Shown in pieces: positions 47,413-58,133 of a stretch of DNA of 64,000 nt. The stretch's first letter is position 1; each line of letters begins with the position of its first letter. The stretch is from Thermoflexus sp. (GTDB taxonomy: Bacteria; Chloroflexota; Anaerolineae; Aggregatilineales; Aggregatilineaceae). Made by a program: the position numbers and the translations under genes. Under the pieces are notes generated by a model that worked only from the letters and a program-made list of their open reading frames with translations, did no database searches and was not told where the DNA came from. Location: assembly GCA_020724465.1 (NCBI GenBank), contig DYGX01000010.1, positions 116,291-180,290 on the forward strand. The letters are read 5' to 3'.

Positions 47413-48477
47413 ATGCCGGGTCAACGCCGCCTCACCATGATCGCGCTCAGCTTGGCGCTGCTGCTGTCGATGCAGGCAGTGCCGGGCGCGGCGTTGGCCG
47501 GGCCGGACACTCAGGGCGTACAGGGGCAGTTGGCGTTGTTTGGGCCGCCGGTCCAGGGCCTGCTGGACGCCAACACGCCCCAGGCGTCCTATCTCTTCCA
47601 CGCGCGCGCGGGGCAGCCGATCTCGCTGCGCGCGGTGGCTCTTTCCGGCGATCTCTCGCTGGACCTCGTGCTTTTCGGCCCGGATGGCGACGGGCTGGCG
47701 CGTGGGGTTCCAGCCCTCAGCGCCCCGCGTACGCTGATCATTGACGCGTTCATTCCCCCCGCCGATGGGACCTACTCGGTCACTGCCAGCGCCTTGAGCG
47801 GCTCGTCCGGCCAATATGAGGTGCGCCTGCTGGGCGGGTACGCCGAGCTGGCGGTGCTGGACGACTTTTCCAACGGGTTCGATCCGCTACGCCTGGAATG
47901 GAGTCCGTTTGTGACGGTGGACGTCGCCGCGGACATGGTTGACGGCGCGCTTGGCATTCAGGTGCTGAACAAGGGCCGGCTAGGGTGTGTGGAGCCGGAT
48001 CAGTGGAGCGCCTACAGCGACCTGTACATCCAGGCCGATTTCACGATTGAAGACACGCCGGGCTATCACGAGTATGGCTTCGCGCTGCGGCTGGCCCGGG
48101 GCACCAGCGCGTTCTATGCGCTTATCTTCAGCAGCGAGGGCGACTGGGCGCTGTTCTACTATGACGGCGCGTGGCATACCGTGCAGGACTGGACCGTCTC
48201 GCCTGCTATCGACGCGTCCGACCGGACACCGCGCATCGGGGTGTTCGTGCAGGACAGCACGTTCCGCGTCTATTTCAACGACCGGGAAGTCGGCGCCATC
48301 ACCGACGACCGGCCCTTCGCGCTCGAAGGCGGCATCGGCCTGGTGGCCGGGACCTCGCCCGACGAGCAGGGTATTCTGGTGGCTTACGTTGATAATCTCG
48401 CTGTGACCACGCCGGCGGCGCCCTATGGCGCGATGGCGCGCGTGGGCACGGCAGAGGTTAATCCTTCTGCGCCGTAA
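47413..48477 (+). CDS. Secreted protein, PPC-like plus LamG-like domain
   Basis: The 354-residue protein has a signal peptide (cleavage near AALA-GPD, about residue 29). Residues 40-135 resemble a pre-peptidase C-terminal (PPC) beta-domain (LFHARAGQPISLRAVAL ... GTYSVTASAL). Residues 145-335 resemble a LamG/concanavalin-like fold (YGFALRLARG ... IGVFVQDSTFRVYFNDREVG). No anchor or sorting signal is seen. It is a paralogue of the next gene. GGAG upstream supports the start. Likely binds glycans or cell-surface material. Confidence 0.72.
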   Translation: MPGQRRLTMIALSLALLLSMQAVPGAALAGPDTQGVQGQLALFGPPVQGLLDANTPQASYLFHARAGQPISLRAVALSGDLSLDLVLFGPDGDGLARGVPALSAPRTLIIDAFIPPADGTYSVTASALSGSSGQYEVRLLGGYAELAVLDDFSNGFDPLRLEWSPFVTVDVAADMVDGALGIQVLNKGRLGCVEPDQWSAYSDLYIQADFTIEDTPGYHEYGFALRLARGTSAFYALIFSSEGDWALFYYDGAWHTVQDWTVSPAIDASDRTPRIGVFVQDSTFRVYFNDREVGAITDDRPFALEGGIGLVAGTSPDEQGILVAYVDNLAVTTPAAPYGAMARVGTAEVNPSAP

Positions 48478-48550
48478 TCCAGCACAGCGCCCGCACAGCG
48501 CCCTGGGTGTCTGCGCGGGACTGGGCCGCAGGCGGCGCATCCCCTCCCGC

Positions 48551-48592
48551 AATCCCTTCCCCTGATTCCGTGCGGCTTTTGGGGAAGGGATT
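48551..48592 (+). terminator. Hairpin after the secreted protein gene
   Basis: A perfect 12-base-pair stem (AATCCCTTCCCC with its complement, loop of 18) lies 74 bases after the stop. It has only a weak T tail and runs into the -35 region of the next promoter, so its role is uncertain. Confidence 0.4.
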
Positions 48593-48595
48593 TCC

Positions 48596-48623
48596 TTGTG
48601 GTACAGTTGAAGTGTCGTACAAT
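48596..48623 (+). promoter_or_regulatory. Promoter of the second secreted protein gene
   Basis: TTGTGG (48596-48601) and TACAAT (48618-48623) are 16 bases apart, directly after the hairpin. Confidence 0.45.
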
Positions 48624-48661
48624 CTGCGGTCTGCCATTCCATGCTTGGGCGCAGGCTTGTG

Positions 48662-50239
48662 ATGAAATCTACTTGTGCACAAACAGCGACGCTGGCGCGC
48701 CTGGTTGCGCTGGTCCTGGTGTGTGGTTTGCTGCCGGCTGGCGCGGTGCGCGCGCAGGGCGGCCTGGCCGCCGGGGCGCTGACCTTCTTCGAGCCGGTGC
48801 GCGGGACGCTGAGCGCCGCGAACCCCTCCGACGACTGGGTGCTGGATGGATCTGCGGGGCAGCCGGTCGCACTGCTGGCTACCGGCGATGGTGACCTCGA
48901 TCCGGTGCTGGAGGTGATCGGGCCGGACGGGGCGCTGCTGGCCGAAAACGACGATATGGACTCGCTGGTGCGCGACGCGGGGCTTGAGGCACTCGTCCTG
49001 CCGTCGGATGGCGCGTATACGGTGCGCGTGCGGCGCTACGAAGGCGCAGGCGGCGCGACGGCGGGCGCGTATGAGTTGATTGCTCTGCCGGGCTTCGGAG
49101 AGATCGTCCGGCGCGACACGTTTTCGGAGAACGAGACGACCTGGATCGCGGTGGGCGATGGCTCGGTTGCGCCCGCGCAGGGATATCTCCGCCTGCGCGC
49201 GCCGGGCGGCGGCGGCCGGGTCCTCGCGGTTCCGACGGACACGCCCCCGCTGAAGGACTTCTACTTCCAGGCCGACACGCGCCTGTTCGGCACGCCGAGC
49301 TATGCCGAGCTTGGGCTGATGGTGCGCATGCCCGTGCAGCCGGGTGCGGTCCACCAGGGCTATACGTTCAAGGTCAACACGGCGGGACAGTGGTCGGTGG
49401 TTGTGGCGGATGCCTCCGGCGAGTTTGTGCTCCAGAGCTGGCGGGCGGCTCCGTCGCTTGAGGCGCAACGCTGGACGCTGGGCGTGCTGGTGCAGGATAC
49501 GACGCTGTCCTTCTACGGAAACGGTGCCTTGCTGGGCACGGTGACCGACGGCCGTCTGGTGGATGCAGGCACGGTCGGGCTGATGGTCGCGACGGACCCC
49601 GGCCAGGACGACCAGGCGACCGTGCTGTTTGATAACGTGGTCATCACGCGGCGGCTGGGGACGACCTATCGCGGCCTGCCGCTGACACTGACCGAGTGGG
49701 CGAATCCGGACTTCCGCCGGGTGGTGGCAGAATTGGCCGCATCGGGCCATGTCGAGCCGGCGCCGGCTCATGCCCTTTACCTCAACAGCCGCGCGCTGGA
49801 CGCCATGGACCGGCTCTCGCGCTTCGAGCTCATCGGCTCGGAGCGGGCGCTGTACGGTGATTTCATGCTCGGCGCCGCGGTGTTGATCTCAACCGAGGGC
49901 GAAAGCGCAGGCTGCGGGCTGCTGTTCCGCTACCAAGACGAGCGCAACCTGGACATGGCGTATATCGACAGCGGCGGCGGCTTTGGGATCGTCCAGGCAC
50001 AGGACGCCGCGCTGACAACCAACGTCTACGACCGGATCCGTCTCAACGAGGCCGGGCCGGATCGGTTGCTGGTTATCGCGCAGGGTGAGCGGGTGACTCT
50101 GTACGTGAACGGCGCGCTGGTGGCGCGGGAAACGCTGGCGCCCAGCGTGGGGCGTGCTGGTCTGGCCCTGCTCAACTACGACGACGCGGTGACGCATTGC
50201 CTGGTCGGGGATATCTGGGTCTGGCTGCTGGCCGGCTGA
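48662..50239 (+). CDS. Secreted protein, PPC-like plus two LamG-like domains
   Basis: The 525-residue protein has a signal peptide (likely cleavage after AVRAQG), a PPC-like domain (about 40-140) and two LamG-like regions. The first of these (about 150-330) matches the LamG-like region of the preceding protein, including TLGVLVQDTTLSFYGNG. The second (about 340-525) is more diverged (DRLLVIAQGERVTLYVNGAL). ATG 48662 was chosen; ATG 48641 seven codons upstream is possible and neither has a strong ribosome site. Probably binds surface or extracellular glycans. Confidence 0.72.
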   Translation: MKSTCAQTATLARLVALVLVCGLLPAGAVRAQGGLAAGALTFFEPVRGTLSAANPSDDWVLDGSAGQPVALLATGDGDLDPVLEVIGPDGALLAENDDMDSLVRDAGLEALVLPSDGAYTVRVRRYEGAGGATAGAYELIALPGFGEIVRRDTFSENETTWIAVGDGSVAPAQGYLRLRAPGGGGRVLAVPTDTPPLKDFYFQADTRLFGTPSYAELGLMVRMPVQPGAVHQGYTFKVNTAGQWSVVVADASGEFVLQSWRAAPSLEAQRWTLGVLVQDTTLSFYGNGALLGTVTDGRLVDAGTVGLMVATDPGQDDQATVLFDNVVITRRLGTTYRGLPLTLTEWANPDFRRVVAELAASGHVEPAPAHALYLNSRALDAMDRLSRFELIGSERALYGDFMLGAAVLISTEGESAGCGLLFRYQDERNLDMAYIDSGGGFGIVQAQDAALTTNVYDRIRLNEAGPDRLLVIAQGERVTLYVNGALVARETLAPSVGRAGLALLNYDDAVTHCLVGDIWVWLLAG

Positions 50240-50268: not shown

Positions 50269-50580
50269 ATGGACGAACTGCACCCGCTCAGCGGGTTCGT
50301 GTGGAAGCGAGGCGCCCGGCTTGGGCTGCTCTGGGCCGCGCTGTTTTTCGCGATGACGGGCGTGGTGTACGCGCTGCTGAGCGCGTTGGGGTGGGATATC
50401 GTGGCGCGGGCGGCATGCGCGGCGCTGGCGGGGCCGCTGCTCTCCACGGCGCTGATCGCGGCGTGGTGGATCGTGCGGCGTCCGGTCTTCGTCGCGCCGG
50501 GGCGCGCTGCCAGCGCGGATCGGGAGCCGGGAGAGGGGGATCGTGAGCCGGACAGACGCGACGACGCTCCAGCACTATAA
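50269..50580 (+). CDS. Small two-helix membrane protein
   Basis: The 103-residue protein has two hydrophobic helices (about 20-38 and 44-68) and a charged C-terminal tail. GGAG lies six bases upstream of the ATG. It overlaps the next gene by 38 bases, so both are likely in one operon. No family is recognised. Confidence 0.58.
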   Translation: MDELHPLSGFVWKRGARLGLLWAALFFAMTGVVYALLSALGWDIVARAACAALAGPLLSTALIAAWWIVRRPVFVAPGRAASADREPGEGDREPDRRDDAPAL

Positions 50581-51448
50581 AACGCTGGAAGTCCGCTTTG
50601 ACCGCGCCGCGCAGATGTACGACGCGATGTTTGGCCCGGCGGACGCCAACGGGCACGGAAACCCGCTGCTGGACTGGCTGCGCGCCGAGCATGTGCGCCT
50701 GCTGCGCGAGCTGTTGCCGGCCAGGGCCGCGGTGCTCGATATTGGCTGCGGCACCGGCGAAGAGGCGCTCGCGTTGGTGCGCGAGGGGTACAGCGTGCTG
50801 GGAATCGACGTCAGCCCGATGATGATCCGCCAGGCGCAGACCAAAGCCGCCGTGTTCGGCGTGCGGCGCGGCTTCACCTGCCGGGTGCTGCCGGCGGGCC
50901 AGCTTGGGCGGCTGGACGAGCGCGGCCCGTTTCAGGGCGCCTACGCCAGCCTGGGCACGCTCAACACCGAGCCTGATTTGCCGGGGTTCGCGCGCGGTCT
51001 GCACGCACTGCTGGAGCGCGGCGCGCCGTTTGTGGCCACCATCATGAGCCGCCGCTGCCTGTTCGAGATGGTGTGGAACCTGCGCCGCCTTAAGCCGACT
51101 GCCACGCTGAAGCGGTCCGGCGTGTGGGCGGAGAGCCGCGCCGGGGCCAGCGCGGTGACGGCGCCGGTTCGTTTCTATTCACCGCGGGCGTTCGCCGCGC
51201 CGTTTCGCCCGTATTTCGCCGTGGAGTCGGTGCGCGCCTTCCCACTGTGGCTGCCGCCGGTGCATCTCCACGAAGTGTACCGGGACGCACCCGATGGCTT
51301 CGCGCGTGCCAAACGCTGGGACGCGCGGATGAGCACCTGGCCGGTGTTTCGCGCGCTGGGCGATCACTTTCTGATGGTGTTGCGCCACACCGCCGATCCA
51401 CAGCCCGACCTGAACCAGGCCGATCAAGACGAGCTGGACAACCCATGA
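50543..51448 (+). CDS. Class I SAM-dependent methyltransferase
   Basis: The 301-residue protein has a clear SAM-binding motif AVLDIGCGTGEEALAL followed by GIDVSPMMIRQA. The rest of the domain is of the general UbiE/COQ5-like layout. The start is GTG at 50543 with GGGGA upstream. The substrate is unknown. It overlaps the next methyltransferase-like gene in ATGA. Confidence 0.85.
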   Translation: MSRTDATTLQHYKTLEVRFDRAAQMYDAMFGPADANGHGNPLLDWLRAEHVRLLRELLPARAAVLDIGCGTGEEALALVREGYSVLGIDVSPMMIRQAQTKAAVFGVRRGFTCRVLPAGQLGRLDERGPFQGAYASLGTLNTEPDLPGFARGLHALLERGAPFVATIMSRRCLFEMVWNLRRLKPTATLKRSGVWAESRAGASAVTAPVRFYSPRAFAAPFRPYFAVESVRAFPLWLPPVHLHEVYRDAPDGFARAKRWDARMSTWPVFRALGDHFLMVLRHTADPQPDLNQADQDELDNP

Positions 51449-52353
51449 CATCCGATTCTTCTCGCGACACATCCGACTCCCTCAATCGTCCGTTTAAGGG
51501 GCGGGGGCGGCAATATCTGCCGCTGCTCGTCTGCCCCATCGACCGTACGCCGCTGGCTCCCGCTGAGGGAGGTGCGGTGTGCACCGCCGATCCGCCGCAT
51601 CACTACCCGATGGAGGACGGCATTTTGCGCCTGGTGACCGATGCGCAGCGCGCCGCGTTCGACGCGGCCTCGCGGGAGCACGAAGCGCGGGCCGCCGCGC
51701 AGGGTTGGGAGTCACCCGACGAGGAGGCGTTCAAGCGCCTGCCGCAAACCGGCCTGGGCGGCTATCCGGAAGACTATTGGCCGCAGTATGCGGCCAGCAC
51801 GGCGTTGCTGTGGCGCTATCTGGAAGCGATCCGGGTGCGGGCGGGCGCGCTGCCCATCGGCCCGATGGGAGACGCGGCAGTGCTTGGCGCGGGGATGGGC
51901 TGGCTGGCGTACGCCCTCGACGTGGCGGGCTACACGACGCTGGCGATCGACGCGGACATCGGGCGCCGCTACGGGCTGGGCGTGTTCCCCATCGCCCGCT
52001 TCATGCGCGTCCAGGCGGACCCGGTGCGTCCGCCTCTGGCGCCGGGAGTGCTCGATCTGGTCCTGTTCCAGGAAGGGCTGGCGCGCACGCGGAGCGAGGA
52101 CGACGAAGCGGCGGCGCTGGCGCGCGCGATCGAGGCGCTGCGGCCGGGCGGTTGGCTGGCAGTGATGGACGCTTTCCCGGAGTCGCTTGAGGTTGTCGAG
52201 GCGTTGCGCGCGCGCTTGCAGGCCGCCGGGTTGCGCCTGATGGATCATCCCAAGCGGTTGCAGTGGCGCGACCGGCTGGCCGAACAGCTTGACCGGATGC
52301 TCAGCCGGAACGGCACGATTCCGTTGGTCACCGTTGCCCAGAAGCCGGAATAG
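51445..52353 (+). CDS. Methyltransferase-like protein with Trm112-like N-terminus
   Basis: The 302-residue protein starts with a Trm112-like segment (LVCPIDRTPL, then VCTADPPHHYPMEDGILRLV), in which the usual CPxC is CPID, so metal binding may be lost. A Rossmann domain follows with AVLGAGMGWLAYAL, a diverged SAM motif. ATG overlaps the upstream stop (ATGA), indicating coupled translation. It could be a partner or regulator of the upstream methyltransferase, or an enzyme in its own right. Confidence 0.68.
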   Translation: MTSDSSRDTSDSLNRPFKGRGRQYLPLLVCPIDRTPLAPAEGGAVCTADPPHHYPMEDGILRLVTDAQRAAFDAASREHEARAAAQGWESPDEEAFKRLPQTGLGGYPEDYWPQYAASTALLWRYLEAIRVRAGALPIGPMGDAAVLGAGMGWLAYALDVAGYTTLAIDADIGRRYGLGVFPIARFMRVQADPVRPPLAPGVLDLVLFQEGLARTRSEDDEAAALARAIEALRPGGWLAVMDAFPESLEVVEALRARLQAAGLRLMDHPKRLQWRDRLAEQLDRMLSRNGTIPLVTVAQKPE

Positions 52354-52703: not shown

Positions 52704-53330
52704 ATGTTCGAAGGGACGCTCGTCGATCTCGTTCCGTTCGAGGACGATTTCGCGACCTATATGGAAAGCTGGATGAACGAAGAGGCATGGTTCCGCGCCC
52801 GCCTGTGGGACCGCCGCGAGCCGTCTCCGGAAGAGGCGGTCAAGAAATTCATCGAGAAGATGGAGAAGAACGAGCACGGCCAGTTGATCGGCTTTCAGAC
52901 CAAAGCGGGCGATCCGATCGGCGGCCTGATCTTCGACCACGAGTGGCCGCGCGTGCGGAAAGTGGACATCATGTTCTTCGCCGGCGACTCCCGCTACGAA
53001 GGTTCTGACGAGCTGCTGGACGGCCTGCTGATGCTTGCCCGCTACTGCTTCGAAACGCGCAACATGCACCGGCTGGACACTCTCGCACTGGCCTTCGACG
53101 AGGCGAAGATCGACATCCTGCGCCGCGCGGGGTTTGTGCACGAGGGCACGCTGCGGCAGCACATTCGCTGGGATGGCGATTATGTGGATGTCGAGCTTTT
53201 CGGGTTGCTGGAAGACGAATGGCCGGGCTATGCCGCCAAAGTCAAGGCGCTCAACTTGCAGCCGAGCGGGCTGGAGCCAAAGCCCAAGCCGGAAAAGAAA
53301 CCCGACGACGAGAAGAAGCCCGCATCCTAA
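52704..53330 (+). CDS. GNAT acetyltransferase 1 of 5 (diverged)
   Basis: The 208-residue protein starts MFEGTLVDLVPFEDDF, the array's shared N-terminus. It differs from the other four: the usual acetyl-CoA loop (W-G-x-G-Y-G-T) is replaced by RYEGSDELLDG, and the C-terminus has a charged tail KPKPEKKPDDEKKP. The remaining fold with RAGFVHEGTLRQ is still RimJ/RimL-like. It may be a weak or non-acetylating member. GGAG upstream supports ATG 52704. It lies 26 bases before the next copy. Confidence 0.75.
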   Translation: MFEGTLVDLVPFEDDFATYMESWMNEEAWFRARLWDRREPSPEEAVKKFIEKMEKNEHGQLIGFQTKAGDPIGGLIFDHEWPRVRKVDIMFFAGDSRYEGSDELLDGLLMLARYCFETRNMHRLDTLALAFDEAKIDILRRAGFVHEGTLRQHIRWDGDYVDVELFGLLEDEWPGYAAKVKALNLQPSGLEPKPKPEKKPDDEKKPAS

Positions 53331-53356
53331 CACGCGAGAGGAGAGGAGATCGCTCC

Positions 53357-53956
53357 ATGCTCGAAGGTTTGCTGGTCGATCTGGTTCCCTATAGCAAGAA
53401 ATTCCTGGATCTGGAACACATCTGGCGCAACAGCGAATCGGCCTTCTGGAGCAGCGGCGGCGAGCGGTACATTGTCTCGCGCGCTGCCATCCGGCGCAAG
53501 GCCGAGGAATGGGCTGAAGAAGCCGAGCGGCTGGGTCCGGCGCGGCCCATGATGTTCGGCATGCAAACCAAAGTCGGCACGCCGATTGGCTTCTTCGCGA
53601 TCACCTGGCTGCTGCCGCATCACCGCGTGGGATTGCTGGGGGTCCGCATCGGCGACCCCAACTATTGGGGCAGGGGCTATGGCACGGATGCGCTGCTGCT
53701 GATTACAGAATTCGCGTTCGACTGGCTGGACTTGCGCAAGGTCTGGCTGGCGACGACCAGCGCCAATGAACGCGTGATGCGCCAGATGGACAAGGTTGGC
53801 TTTGTGCTGGAAGCCCGCGAGCGGCGCGCCTCGCTGATGGACGGCATCTGGGTGGACGGGCTGCTGTACGGCATGCTGCGCGAGGAGTGGCCCGGCCGCG
53901 AGGCGTTGATCGAACGTCTCGGGCTGCGCCCGGTGGAGCAGGGTGATGTTCGGTAG
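53357..53956 (+). CDS. GNAT acetyltransferase 2 of 5
   Basis: The 199-residue protein starts MLEGLLVDLVPYSKKF. The acetyl-CoA loop is intact (YWGRGYGTDALLL), followed by FDWLDLRKVWLATTSANERV and KVGFVLEARERR, and the end EEWPGREALIERLGL. The layout is that of RimJ/RimL-type N-acetyltransferases (Acetyltransf_3). GGAG upstream supports the ATG. The substrate is unknown. Confidence 0.85.
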   Translation: MLEGLLVDLVPYSKKFLDLEHIWRNSESAFWSSGGERYIVSRAAIRRKAEEWAEEAERLGPARPMMFGMQTKVGTPIGFFAITWLLPHHRVGLLGVRIGDPNYWGRGYGTDALLLITEFAFDWLDLRKVWLATTSANERVMRQMDKVGFVLEARERRASLMDGIWVDGLLYGMLREEWPGREALIERLGLRPVEQGDVR

Positions 53957-54518
53957 CGGCGTGCTGGTTGATCTGGTCCCCTACGGCCAGCGATTCCTGG
54001 ATCTGGAGCACGGTTGGCTGAACGGCGAGGGCGTGTTCTGGTGGGCGGTCGGCGGGCGGTGGTTTGTCACCCGCGCCGGACTGGAGATGGACCGGCGTGA
54101 GGAGCAGGATGATACCAGCGGGCGCGTGCGCTTCGGCGTGCAAACCAAGGACGGCACGCCGATCGGCCTGATCGGCATCAACTGGCTTGCTGCCCATCAC
54201 CGGACCGGGATGCTCACCGCCTTCATCGGCGAGCCGGCCTACTGGAGCGGCGGCTATGGCACGGACGCGCTGTTGTTGCTGATTGACTATGCCTTCGATT
54301 GGCTCGACCTGCGGCGTGTCTGGCTGATGACCATGAGCCTCAATGCGCGGGTGATGCGCCAGATGGAGAAAGTGGGCTTCCGGCTGGAAGGCTGCCGCCG
54401 CCAGGCGACCTGGGCCGATGGGGCGTGGCACGACATGCTGGTTTATGCGCTGGCGCGCGACGAGTGGCCGGGCCGCGAGGTGCTGGTGGCGCGGTTGGGA
54501 CTGACCGCGCAGAACTGA
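53946..54518 (+). CDS. GNAT acetyltransferase 3 of 5
   Basis: The 190-residue protein starts MFGSGVLVDLVPYGQRF and overlaps the previous copy by 11 bases, so translation is likely coupled. The acetyl-CoA loop reads YWSGGYGTDALLLL, with one Gly-to-Ser change at the first Gly. It retains DWLDLRRVWLMTMSLNARV and the C-terminal EWPGREVLVARLGL. A GTG one codon upstream is an alternative start. Confidence 0.85.
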   Translation: MFGSGVLVDLVPYGQRFLDLEHGWLNGEGVFWWAVGGRWFVTRAGLEMDRREEQDDTSGRVRFGVQTKDGTPIGLIGINWLAAHHRTGMLTAFIGEPAYWSGGYGTDALLLLIDYAFDWLDLRRVWLMTMSLNARVMRQMEKVGFRLEGCRRQATWADGAWHDMLVYALARDEWPGREVLVARLGLTAQN

Positions 54519-54526
54519 GAGGCCTT

Positions 54527-55114
54527 ATGTTCGAAGGACTGCTGGTAGACCTCGTTCCTTACGGCAACGCTTTTCAACAGCAGGAACACCGCTGGTTCAA
54601 TAACGAGTCCGCGTTTTGGGGCACGGCTGGCGATCGCTTGATCGTGTCCAAAGCGGCGGTCGAGCGCTGGCAGACTGAGCGCCAGGACGATGGGGCCCGG
54701 CCGGACGGCGGCTCAATCTGGTTCGGAATTCGTTCCAAGGCCGGCGTGCCGCTGGGCGACATTGAGCTGGGGTACATCTCGCCGCATCACCGCATGAGCA
54801 TGATCGGCGTCGGTATCGGCGAGCCGGAATACTGGGGCGGGGGGTATGGAACGGACGCCCTGCTGCTGATCATGGAGTACGCTTTCAACTGGCTGGACCA
54901 TCATCGCCTCTGGCTGCACACGATGGGCACCAACGTGCGCATGCAGCGCGCGGCCACAAAGGTGGGCTTCCACGAGGAGGCGCGGCGGCGCCGGTTCTGG
55001 CTGGCAGATGGTCAGTGGACCGATGACGTGATCTACGGTCTGTTGCGCCAGGACTGGCCGGGCCGCGAGGCGCTGGTCGAGCGGCTGGGGCTGCACCCCC
55101 GCCAGGAGCCGTGA
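54527..55114 (+). CDS. GNAT acetyltransferase 4 of 5
   Basis: The 195-residue protein starts MFEGLLVDLVPYGNAF, eight bases after the third copy. The acetyl-CoA loop is YWGGGYGTDALLL, and it ends DWPGREALVERLGLHPRQEP. It has MGTNVRMQRAATKVGF where the other copies have RQMEKVGF-type sequence, so it is diverged in that region. GAGAGG upstream supports the ATG. Confidence 0.85.
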   Translation: MFEGLLVDLVPYGNAFQQQEHRWFNNESAFWGTAGDRLIVSKAAVERWQTERQDDGARPDGGSIWFGIRSKAGVPLGDIELGYISPHHRMSMIGVGIGEPEYWGGGYGTDALLLIMEYAFNWLDHHRLWLHTMGTNVRMQRAATKVGFHEEARRRRFWLADGQWTDDVIYGLLRQDWPGREALVERLGLHPRQEP

Positions 55115-55116
55115 CC

Positions 55117-55689
55117 ATGCTCGAAGGGCTGCTGGTCGATCTGGTGCCATACGGTCAGGCGCATCAGGCGCGGGACCATGCCTGGTGGAACAACGAATCG
55201 TCCTTCTGGGCCAGCATGGGCGAGCGTGAGATCGTCTCGCGTGCGGCGGTCGAGCGCCGGCACCGCGAGTGGGTTGAGCCGGACCAACCCAGGACGGGGG
55301 TCGCGTTTGGCGTCCAGACAAAAGACGGGACGCCAATCGGCTATTTCGGGGTCAACTTCCTCAGCTATCACCACCGCGTCGCCAACCTGGGCGCGAACAT
55401 CAGCGAGCCGGGCTATTGGGGCGGTGGCTACGGGACGGACGCGCTGCTGCTGATCGTGGACTACGCCTTCAACTGGCTCGATATGCGCCGTGTCTGGCTG
55501 GGCACCATGAGCCTGAACACCCGCGTGCTGCGCCAGATGGAGAAAGTCGGGTTTGTGCTCGAAGGGCGCCACCGCCGGATGACGCTGGCCGACGGGCAGT
55601 GGTATGACGAGGTGATCTTTGGCCTGCTGCGCGAGGAATGGCCGGGGCGCGAAGCCATGCTCGAGCGGTTGGGGCTGCGCGCCCGCTGA
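55117..55689 (+). CDS. GNAT acetyltransferase 5 of 5
   Basis: The 190-residue protein starts MLEGLLVDLVPYGQAH, two bases after the fourth copy. The acetyl-CoA loop is YWGGGYGTDALLL, with NWLDMRRVWLGTMSLNTRV and RQMEKVGFVLEGRHRR, and the end EEWPGREAMLERLGL. GGAG upstream supports the ATG at 55117; GTG 55111 is an alternative. The gene is followed by a strong GC hairpin. Confidence 0.85.
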   Translation: MLEGLLVDLVPYGQAHQARDHAWWNNESSFWASMGEREIVSRAAVERRHREWVEPDQPRTGVAFGVQTKDGTPIGYFGVNFLSYHHRVANLGANISEPGYWGGGYGTDALLLIVDYAFNWLDMRRVWLGTMSLNTRVLRQMEKVGFVLEGRHRRMTLADGQWYDEVIFGLLREEWPGREAMLERLGLRAR

Positions 55690-57601: not shown

Positions 57602-58003
57602 CTAGGGCTGGACATCCGGCTGGGCCGGCGGCGGGTTGAGGCGAACAGCACGGTCGAGGGCGTGCTCGATGTCTTCCAGCGTGGGCGGTTTGACCAGGTA
57701 GGCGCTGGCCCCGGCTTCCTGAGCGGCGCGGCGCATCTCAACCGAATCGTTGGCGGTAATGACCACAACCGGCACATCGGCAGTGACCGGGTCGCGACGC
57801 AGGAAGCGCAGCACTTCCAGCCCGTTGACGCCCGGCATGTTGATGTCCAGCAGGATCACGTCGGGGATCACCTGGCCAAGCTGGCGCAGCGCCATGCGCG
57901 GCCCGTAGGCGATGGCGACGGTGTGCCCCAATACGCCGACCTGCGCGCCCAGGCTGTCCGCGGTGCGGCGGTCGTCTTCGATAATCAGCACGTTATACAG
58001 CAT
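57602..58003 (-). CDS. Response regulator, receiver domain only
   Basis: The 133-residue protein is a CheY-like single receiver domain: Asp10/Asp11, phospho-acceptor Asp53 in ILLDINMPG, Thr83 and Lys105 in YLVKPP. It has no output domain. The start at 58003 has GAAGGG upstream; the longer frame adds 19 codons without a site. No histidine kinase is nearby. Confidence 0.9.
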   Translation of the reverse strand: MLYNVLIIEDDRRTADSLGAQVGVLGHTVAIAYGPRMALRQLGQVIPDVILLDINMPGVNGLEVLRFLRRDPVTADVPVVVITANDSVEMRRAAQEAGASAYLVKPPTLEDIEHALDRAVRLNPPPAQPDVQP

Positions 58004-58133
58004 TTTTGGCCCTTCTTGTCCTGCCCAAAGCTGCTCCCGGCTGCGGGTATTGTAGCACACGCCCTGCCCAACGCGCAGCCGTGTCAGAATTCCCTGGATC
58101 GCGAGCCGCCACCCTCGTCCCCGTGCCGATCTG

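Follow-up and report, generated by a model that had tools for sequence, protein, structure and literature searches.

A stretch of 64,000 nucleotides from contig DYGX01000010.1 of Thermoflexus sp. (hereafter, the window means this whole stretch) contains five adjacent genes, G1 to G5, encoding proteins of the GCN5-related N-acetyltransferase (GNAT) family. We tentatively propose, with a confidence a little short of even, that the first or lead gene, G1, encodes a likely non-catalytic adaptor or regulator with a GNAT fold, which would bind directly the lineage-variable RimJ/RimL-like acetyltransferases encoded in the same row (the canonical copies), themselves predicted to have different substrates. 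The arrangement is real, conserved and made of known parts, and it is undescribed as far as our searches reach; no description of these arrays was found in the open-licence literature, and we do not claim that none exists in print. If the proposal is true, a bacterial acetyltransferase system would consist of one fixed pseudo-enzyme and a variable number of catalytic paralogues, and would provide a natural case for studying both the function of pseudo-enzymes and the birth of new specificities side by side. It would also offer a testable function for 97 relatives of the lead and for the many enzymes of such arrays that carry no annotation beyond generic GNAT.

Conservation and descent of the gene row

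The reading frames, Pfam matches and pairwise identities agree with an earlier sequence-only reading, which had described five tandem GNAT paralogue genes with the positions and spacings reported here (Table 1). The genes follow each other at 26, –11, 8 and 2 bases, and purine-rich stretches resembling ribosome-binding sites, as judged by eye, lie upstream of the starts. All five proteins exceed the cut-off of Pfam Acetyltransf_3, G1 barely (27.3 versus 25.4 bits). Pairwise identity is 50.8–61.1% within G2–G5, compared with 28.9–30.4% between G1 and each of G2–G5. The AlphaFold models of G1 and G5 match GNATs by both Foldseek and VIA-align, and G2–G4 are assigned to the fold by Pfam only. Outside the row, the host genome (98.99% complete) contains just two weak further matches to G5. 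A scan for sigma-70 promoters found none and was uninformative, and a terminator scan found three, all on the minus strand and none at the plus-strand end of the row.

We surveyed 18 genomes from 12 genera of the family Aggregatilineaceae, reading the rows in 20 stretches. Matches to G5 were found in all 18 genomes, as were rows of at least two copies, which in G010 and G012 contain an intervening gene; a chance arrangement is therefore excluded. An orthologue of the lead was found in 16 of the 18 genomes and is single and first in every one of them, although that of G008 is split into two pieces on two contigs. It is missing in G005 and G012, where the row starts at or near a contig end. The number of canonical copies that follow the lead ranges from one (G007 and G010) to nine (G001), these counts being minima as some rows reach contig ends. 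In a search of 121 genomes of the order, orthologues of the lead turned up in this family alone, the best match elsewhere being 7.1e-17; the family leads score 1.9e-66 or better, except for the contig-end fragment in G008. In a protein collection, the lead retrieved 97 relatives at E 1e-10 or better, all at least 50% identical and some of them fragments, and G5 retrieved 479 at the same threshold (the best 120 of 479 being listed), the weaker of which may include other GNATs. The record names of these relatives are Anaerolineae, Chloroflexi and Aggregatilineaceae, and our use of the family name follows these records.

A tree of the arrays was computed from 82 of 84 array rows, after two fragments, including part of the G008 lead, had been dropped. 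It places the 15 full-length leads together in a single clade (support 100/100), with the 67 other proteins on the opposite side. Each of G2–G5 of the window clusters with a copy from the other two genomes of its genus, and some also cluster with copies from other genera, while local duplications are seen in G001 (copies 8–10) and G005 (copies 3–5). In a wider tree, to which GNATs from outside the family were added and which was thinned by dropping 11 name patterns and G005b, leads and canonical copies together occupy one side of a branch that separates them from the outside GNATs (99/95). This grouping supports duplication within one ancestral row and, together with the orthologues of the window copies in other genomes, supports the duplication and divergence suggested before. 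The relatives reside mostly in syntenic arrays rather than as scattered single genes, and G1–G5 constitute one family rather than clearly different GNAT families.

The lead protein and the canonical copies

As noted earlier from the sequence, the first gene lacks the acetyl-CoA loop, and our alignment places another sequence, RYEGSDELLD, at that position. A loop of the form YWxGGYGTDAL had been ascribed to the other four genes; this is exact for G3 (YWSGGYGTDAL) and for G4 and G5 (both YWGGGYGTDAL), whereas G2 reads YWGRGYGTDAL. Similarly, the common C-terminal pattern described in that reading is present but varies by one or two residues. We aligned 104 leads, including only those of the 97 database leads with 195–240 amino acids, and found that R-Y-E-G-(S/T)-D-E replaces the phosphate loop and is nearly invariant (R97 in 103 rows, E99 in 103, D102 in 104 and E103 in 103). 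The replacement is present in all 15 full-length genome leads, compared with a glycine loop in all 67 full-length canonical copies. At the places of the two P-loop glycines, G1 has Asp102 and Leu104, and the leads in general have Asp and mostly aliphatic residues. The GNAT P-loop is described in PMC4964394 as Gln/Arg-x-x-Gly-x-Gly/Ala, the amides of which hold the phosphates of CoA, and G1 lacks this motif. G1 is thus a GNAT by predicted fold and by descent, not by its cofactor motif. Its AlphaFold model is a full GNAT (mean pLDDT 91.5, with values below 50 at residues 200–207), and the closest structures found by Foldseek and VIA-align were SpeG, RimJ and a lasso-peptide acetyltransferase.

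We compared nonsynonymous (dN) and synonymous (dS) substitution rates for six genome pairs within two trios. Gene 1 had the lowest dN of the array in all six pairs and the lowest dN/dS in five (0.048–0.186), the exception being G014/G015, in which gene 3 was lower; the other array genes showed dN/dS values of 0.092–0.416, and all genes tested were under purifying selection. Decay of the first gene is ruled out by its near-invariant loop in the 104 rows and by its lowest dN in six of six pairs.

A second distinguishing feature of the leads is the C-terminal tail beyond the fold. We compared 100 lead rows (identical ones removed), and tails were taken from the 98 of 104 leads and 57 of 67 canonical copies in which the EWPG motif was found. 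A conserved Lys/Pro core, (L/I)EPKPKPEKK, occurs in the leads only, and its PKP motif is present in all 15 full-length genome leads. At least three lysines were counted in 94 of 98 lead tails versus none of 57 canonical tails, the latter having a median length of two residues. Leads that lack the loop and carry the tail were seen in Aggregatilineaceae only.

Both P-loop glycines are retained in all 67 canonical copies, although the first motif position in G2–G5 is Trp rather than Gln/Arg (W101 in 66 of 67). The residues R87, D108, T130, N134, E149 and W175 are present in all 67 rows. At the column of the general acid, which could be scored in 65 of the 67 full-length rows, Tyr is absent and the residues are Met (50), Val (9), Ala (4) and Ile (2), compared with Tyr in 24 of 33 proteins from the rows of other families. 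For five orthologue groups (21 rows), we compared identity within orthologues with that between paralogues; the ratio was highest in the helix 1–2 region (0.65 versus 0.32) and lowest in the C-terminus (0.66/0.62), the cofactor loop with helix 3 (0.78/0.73) and the N-terminus (0.84/0.78). Divergence centred on the helix 1–2 region is, from the alignment, the pattern that would be expected for enzymes that share a cofactor but act on different substrates.

A possible complex, independent enzymes and known systems

These features led us to a working model in which the lead would not bind acetyl-CoA and would instead bind the canonical copies directly, as an adaptor or regulator, while its Lys/Pro tail might dock on a common target such as the ribosome, a substrate or partners; the targets of the canonical copies may be protein N-termini or similar amines. 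A mixed complex of the row proteins, suggested in the sequence-only reading, is possible and appears likelier in view of the conserved loop-less lead. There are partial precedents. Yeast Naa50 is reported in PMC9500918 to be an inactive GNAT that belongs to NatE and contacts the ribosome, and it resembles the proposed lead as an inactive GNAT retained as the partner of an active one. However, NatE is eukaryotic and has an extra subunit, Naa15. In Eis, according to PMC4964394, an inactive middle GNAT domain with a P-loop lacking a key residue lies beside an active domain, but within one polypeptide, whereas the genes here are separate, with one lead for one to nine canonical copies. A stronger version of the model, in which the rows are a bacterial counterpart of the Nat complexes, with a tail-docked pseudo-GNAT carrying swappable catalytic GNATs to a common target and a repertoire widened by adding copies, seems unlikely to us.

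However, a number of observations weigh against the working model. A further copy in G012 (on C32) has no lead within 7.4 kb of upstream sequence, and relatives of the canonical copies are found off the row in G005 (C158), G017 (C62), G004 (C130) and G011 (C14). In G010, a tRNA synthetase gene of class II (type D, K and N; L046 2472–3779) separates the lead from the single canonical copy; in G012, the GNAT row is split by the gene for an ABC transporter whose membrane and ATPase parts are fused (L048 1315–3114); and the row of G009 has gaps of 81–254 bases. Strict co-translation is therefore not required. The lead tail, at 30% lysine, has a median net charge of just +1, which weakens simple electrostatic binding of RNA. 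Docking on the ribosome by charge alone was considered and is weakened by this near-neutral tail. Finally, MtAAC(2')-Ic and PseH have atypical P-loops yet bind CoA, as stated in PMC4964394, and the solved protein TTHA1799 also has an odd loop in our alignment, so that loss of the motif is not proof of loss of the cofactor.

Rows of GNATs outside the family add a further point of this kind. Although RimJ/RimL-like GNATs had been said to normally occur singly, a class-wide profile search of 249 genomes revealed adjacent RimL-like GNATs in at least 16 genomes (counted by eye) of several other families of Anaerolineae. As in the window, a distinct first GNAT is followed by further RimL-like GNATs; unlike in the window, the first gene of the row in 8 of 10 outside stretches examined belongs to a single, separate GNAT clade (100/100 in a tree from which one fragment was left out). 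All eight of these leads keep an intact loop, so inactivity is not a requirement of the lead position. A search with one of them found the separate-lead clade, at E 1e-45 or better, in 19 of the 249 genomes, in five families (f50, f34, f28, f46 and f11; stretches L089–L098 and L100–L118), each time adjoining another GNAT. The best tree separates the window-type lead from the leads of other families, but joining them was not rejected by the approximately unbiased (AU) test (p 0.099). To judge from the sequences, rows led by a distinct GNAT are either very ancient or of more than one origin. None of the genes flanking the row in the window was found in the short stretches examined around the rows of other families.

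The tandem RimL-like rows without a loop-less lead are also what would be expected if the proteins were independent acetyltransferases that act on their own small-molecule or peptide substrates and are co-transcribed for convenience. In that case no complex would form, and the lead would be a further enzyme or an unrelated regulator. The differences between paralogues in the helix 1–2 region and the relatives off the array point in the same direction. We regard this explanation as rather unlikely though a serious one, because it does not account for a lead that, unlike the other genes, occurs in one copy and in first place, is the most conserved and carries a tail. It is quite unlikely, in our estimate, that the lead has remained an enzyme whose cofactor site was remodelled, so that it uses a different acyl donor or contacts CoA in a novel manner through its acidic loop. 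Its conserved rather than decayed loop, the strong purifying selection on it, the CoA-binding GNATs with atypical loops (PMC4964394) and the odd loop of TTHA1799 would all fit such an enzyme, but the replacement of both pyrophosphate-loop glycines and the presence of two acidic residues should disfavour a negatively charged pyrophosphate. Expansion by gene dosage or drift, in which unequal crossing-over yields mostly redundant copies without distinct functions, might explain the range of one to nine canonical copies and the local expansions in G001 and G005. It is nevertheless very unlikely, because orthologues of the window copies exist in other genomes and all genes tested are under purifying selection, which indicates that most copies are kept separately.

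The proteins of the row resemble several known acetyltransferases. They share with RimJ/RimL-type proteins and TTHA1799 (PDB 2z0z) the fold, the length, a C-terminal (K/R)EEWPG stretch and the lack of Tyr at the usual place of the general acid; in RimL, PMC4964394 gives Ser141 as the proposed general acid. Among PDB sequences, G5 is closest to TTHA1799 (E 8.7e-12), whose name was not found in a literature search aimed at it. The row proteins differ in that they miss the cut-offs of the NCBIfam RimJ/RimL equivalogs PRK10809 and PRK10151 (at most 26.1 versus 184–190 bits) and form a row headed by a lead that lacks the loop. SpeG is the top Foldseek match of the G1 and G5 models and the top profile match among PDB sequences (6vfn); however, the SpeG equivalog PRK15130 (NCBIfam) was not reached (at most 33.2 versus 218 bits), and 6vfn aligns a general-acid Tyr where none of the 65 canonical copies has one. 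The defence or antibiotic-related role that had been considered for the row found no support: none of the five array proteins matched a PADLOC defence model at 1e-3, the cut-offs for AAC(6') aminoglycoside acetyltransferases were not reached (at most 25.7 versus 250–450 bits), and PHROGs, searched with G1 and G5 only, returned generic acetyltransferase families.

Neighbouring genes

Several neighbours of the row are conserved (Table 1). The numbers given here indicate whether a gene was found within the sequence stretches examined, and contig ends account for some misses. MT2 lies upstream of the row in 11 of 18 genomes and protein S downstream in 12 of 18 (each partial in G003), and the response regulator is found downstream in 11 of 18, excluding a weak 36% match in G005. 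Neither MT1 nor MT2 was found in the 1.7–7.3 kb upstream sequence of G007, G009, G010 and G011, and in G009 neither a methyltransferase gene nor protein S was found around the row.

Table 1. Positions in the window of the GNAT row, of two segments of its lead gene and of conserved neighbours
Feature	Position	Strand	Description
G1 (lead GNAT)	52704-53330	+	208 aa; without the P-loop; C-terminal tail rich in Lys and Pro; probably a non-catalytic subunit, as predicted from sequence
G1 codons 97-106, RYEGSDELLD	52992-53021	+	place of the acetyl-CoA pyrophosphate loop, by alignment
G1 codons 189-208, Lys/Pro-rich tail	53268-53327	+	LEPKPKPEKK core; end predicted to be disordered
G2	53357-53956	+	199 aa; RimJ/RimL-like GNAT with canonical loop
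G3	53946-54518	+	190 aa; canonical-loop GNAT; 11-base overlap with G2
G4	54527-55114	+	195 aa; canonical-loop GNAT
G5	55117-55689	+	190 aa; canonical-loop GNAT
MT1, SAM methyltransferase	50543-51448	+	upstream neighbour, conserved; no claim that it belongs to the operon
MT2, methyltransferase-like	51445-52353	+	conserved upstream neighbour; sub-threshold Methyltransf_11 and Trm112p
S, 519 aa	55837-57396	+	conserved downstream neighbour without Pfam match
Response regulator receiver protein	57602-58060	-	conserved downstream neighbour

In MT2, a weak Trm112p-like stretch at the N-terminus (E 0.011, below the cut-off) precedes the methyltransferase-like part. In MT1, only residues 17–115 match the PADLOC model mad2 (E 4e-13), which probably reflects just the common methyltransferase domain. 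Farther upstream, at 47413–50239 of the window, two proteins contain weak PPC or laminin-G-like parts, and such proteins, like the 519-residue protein, are conserved around the row in several genera.
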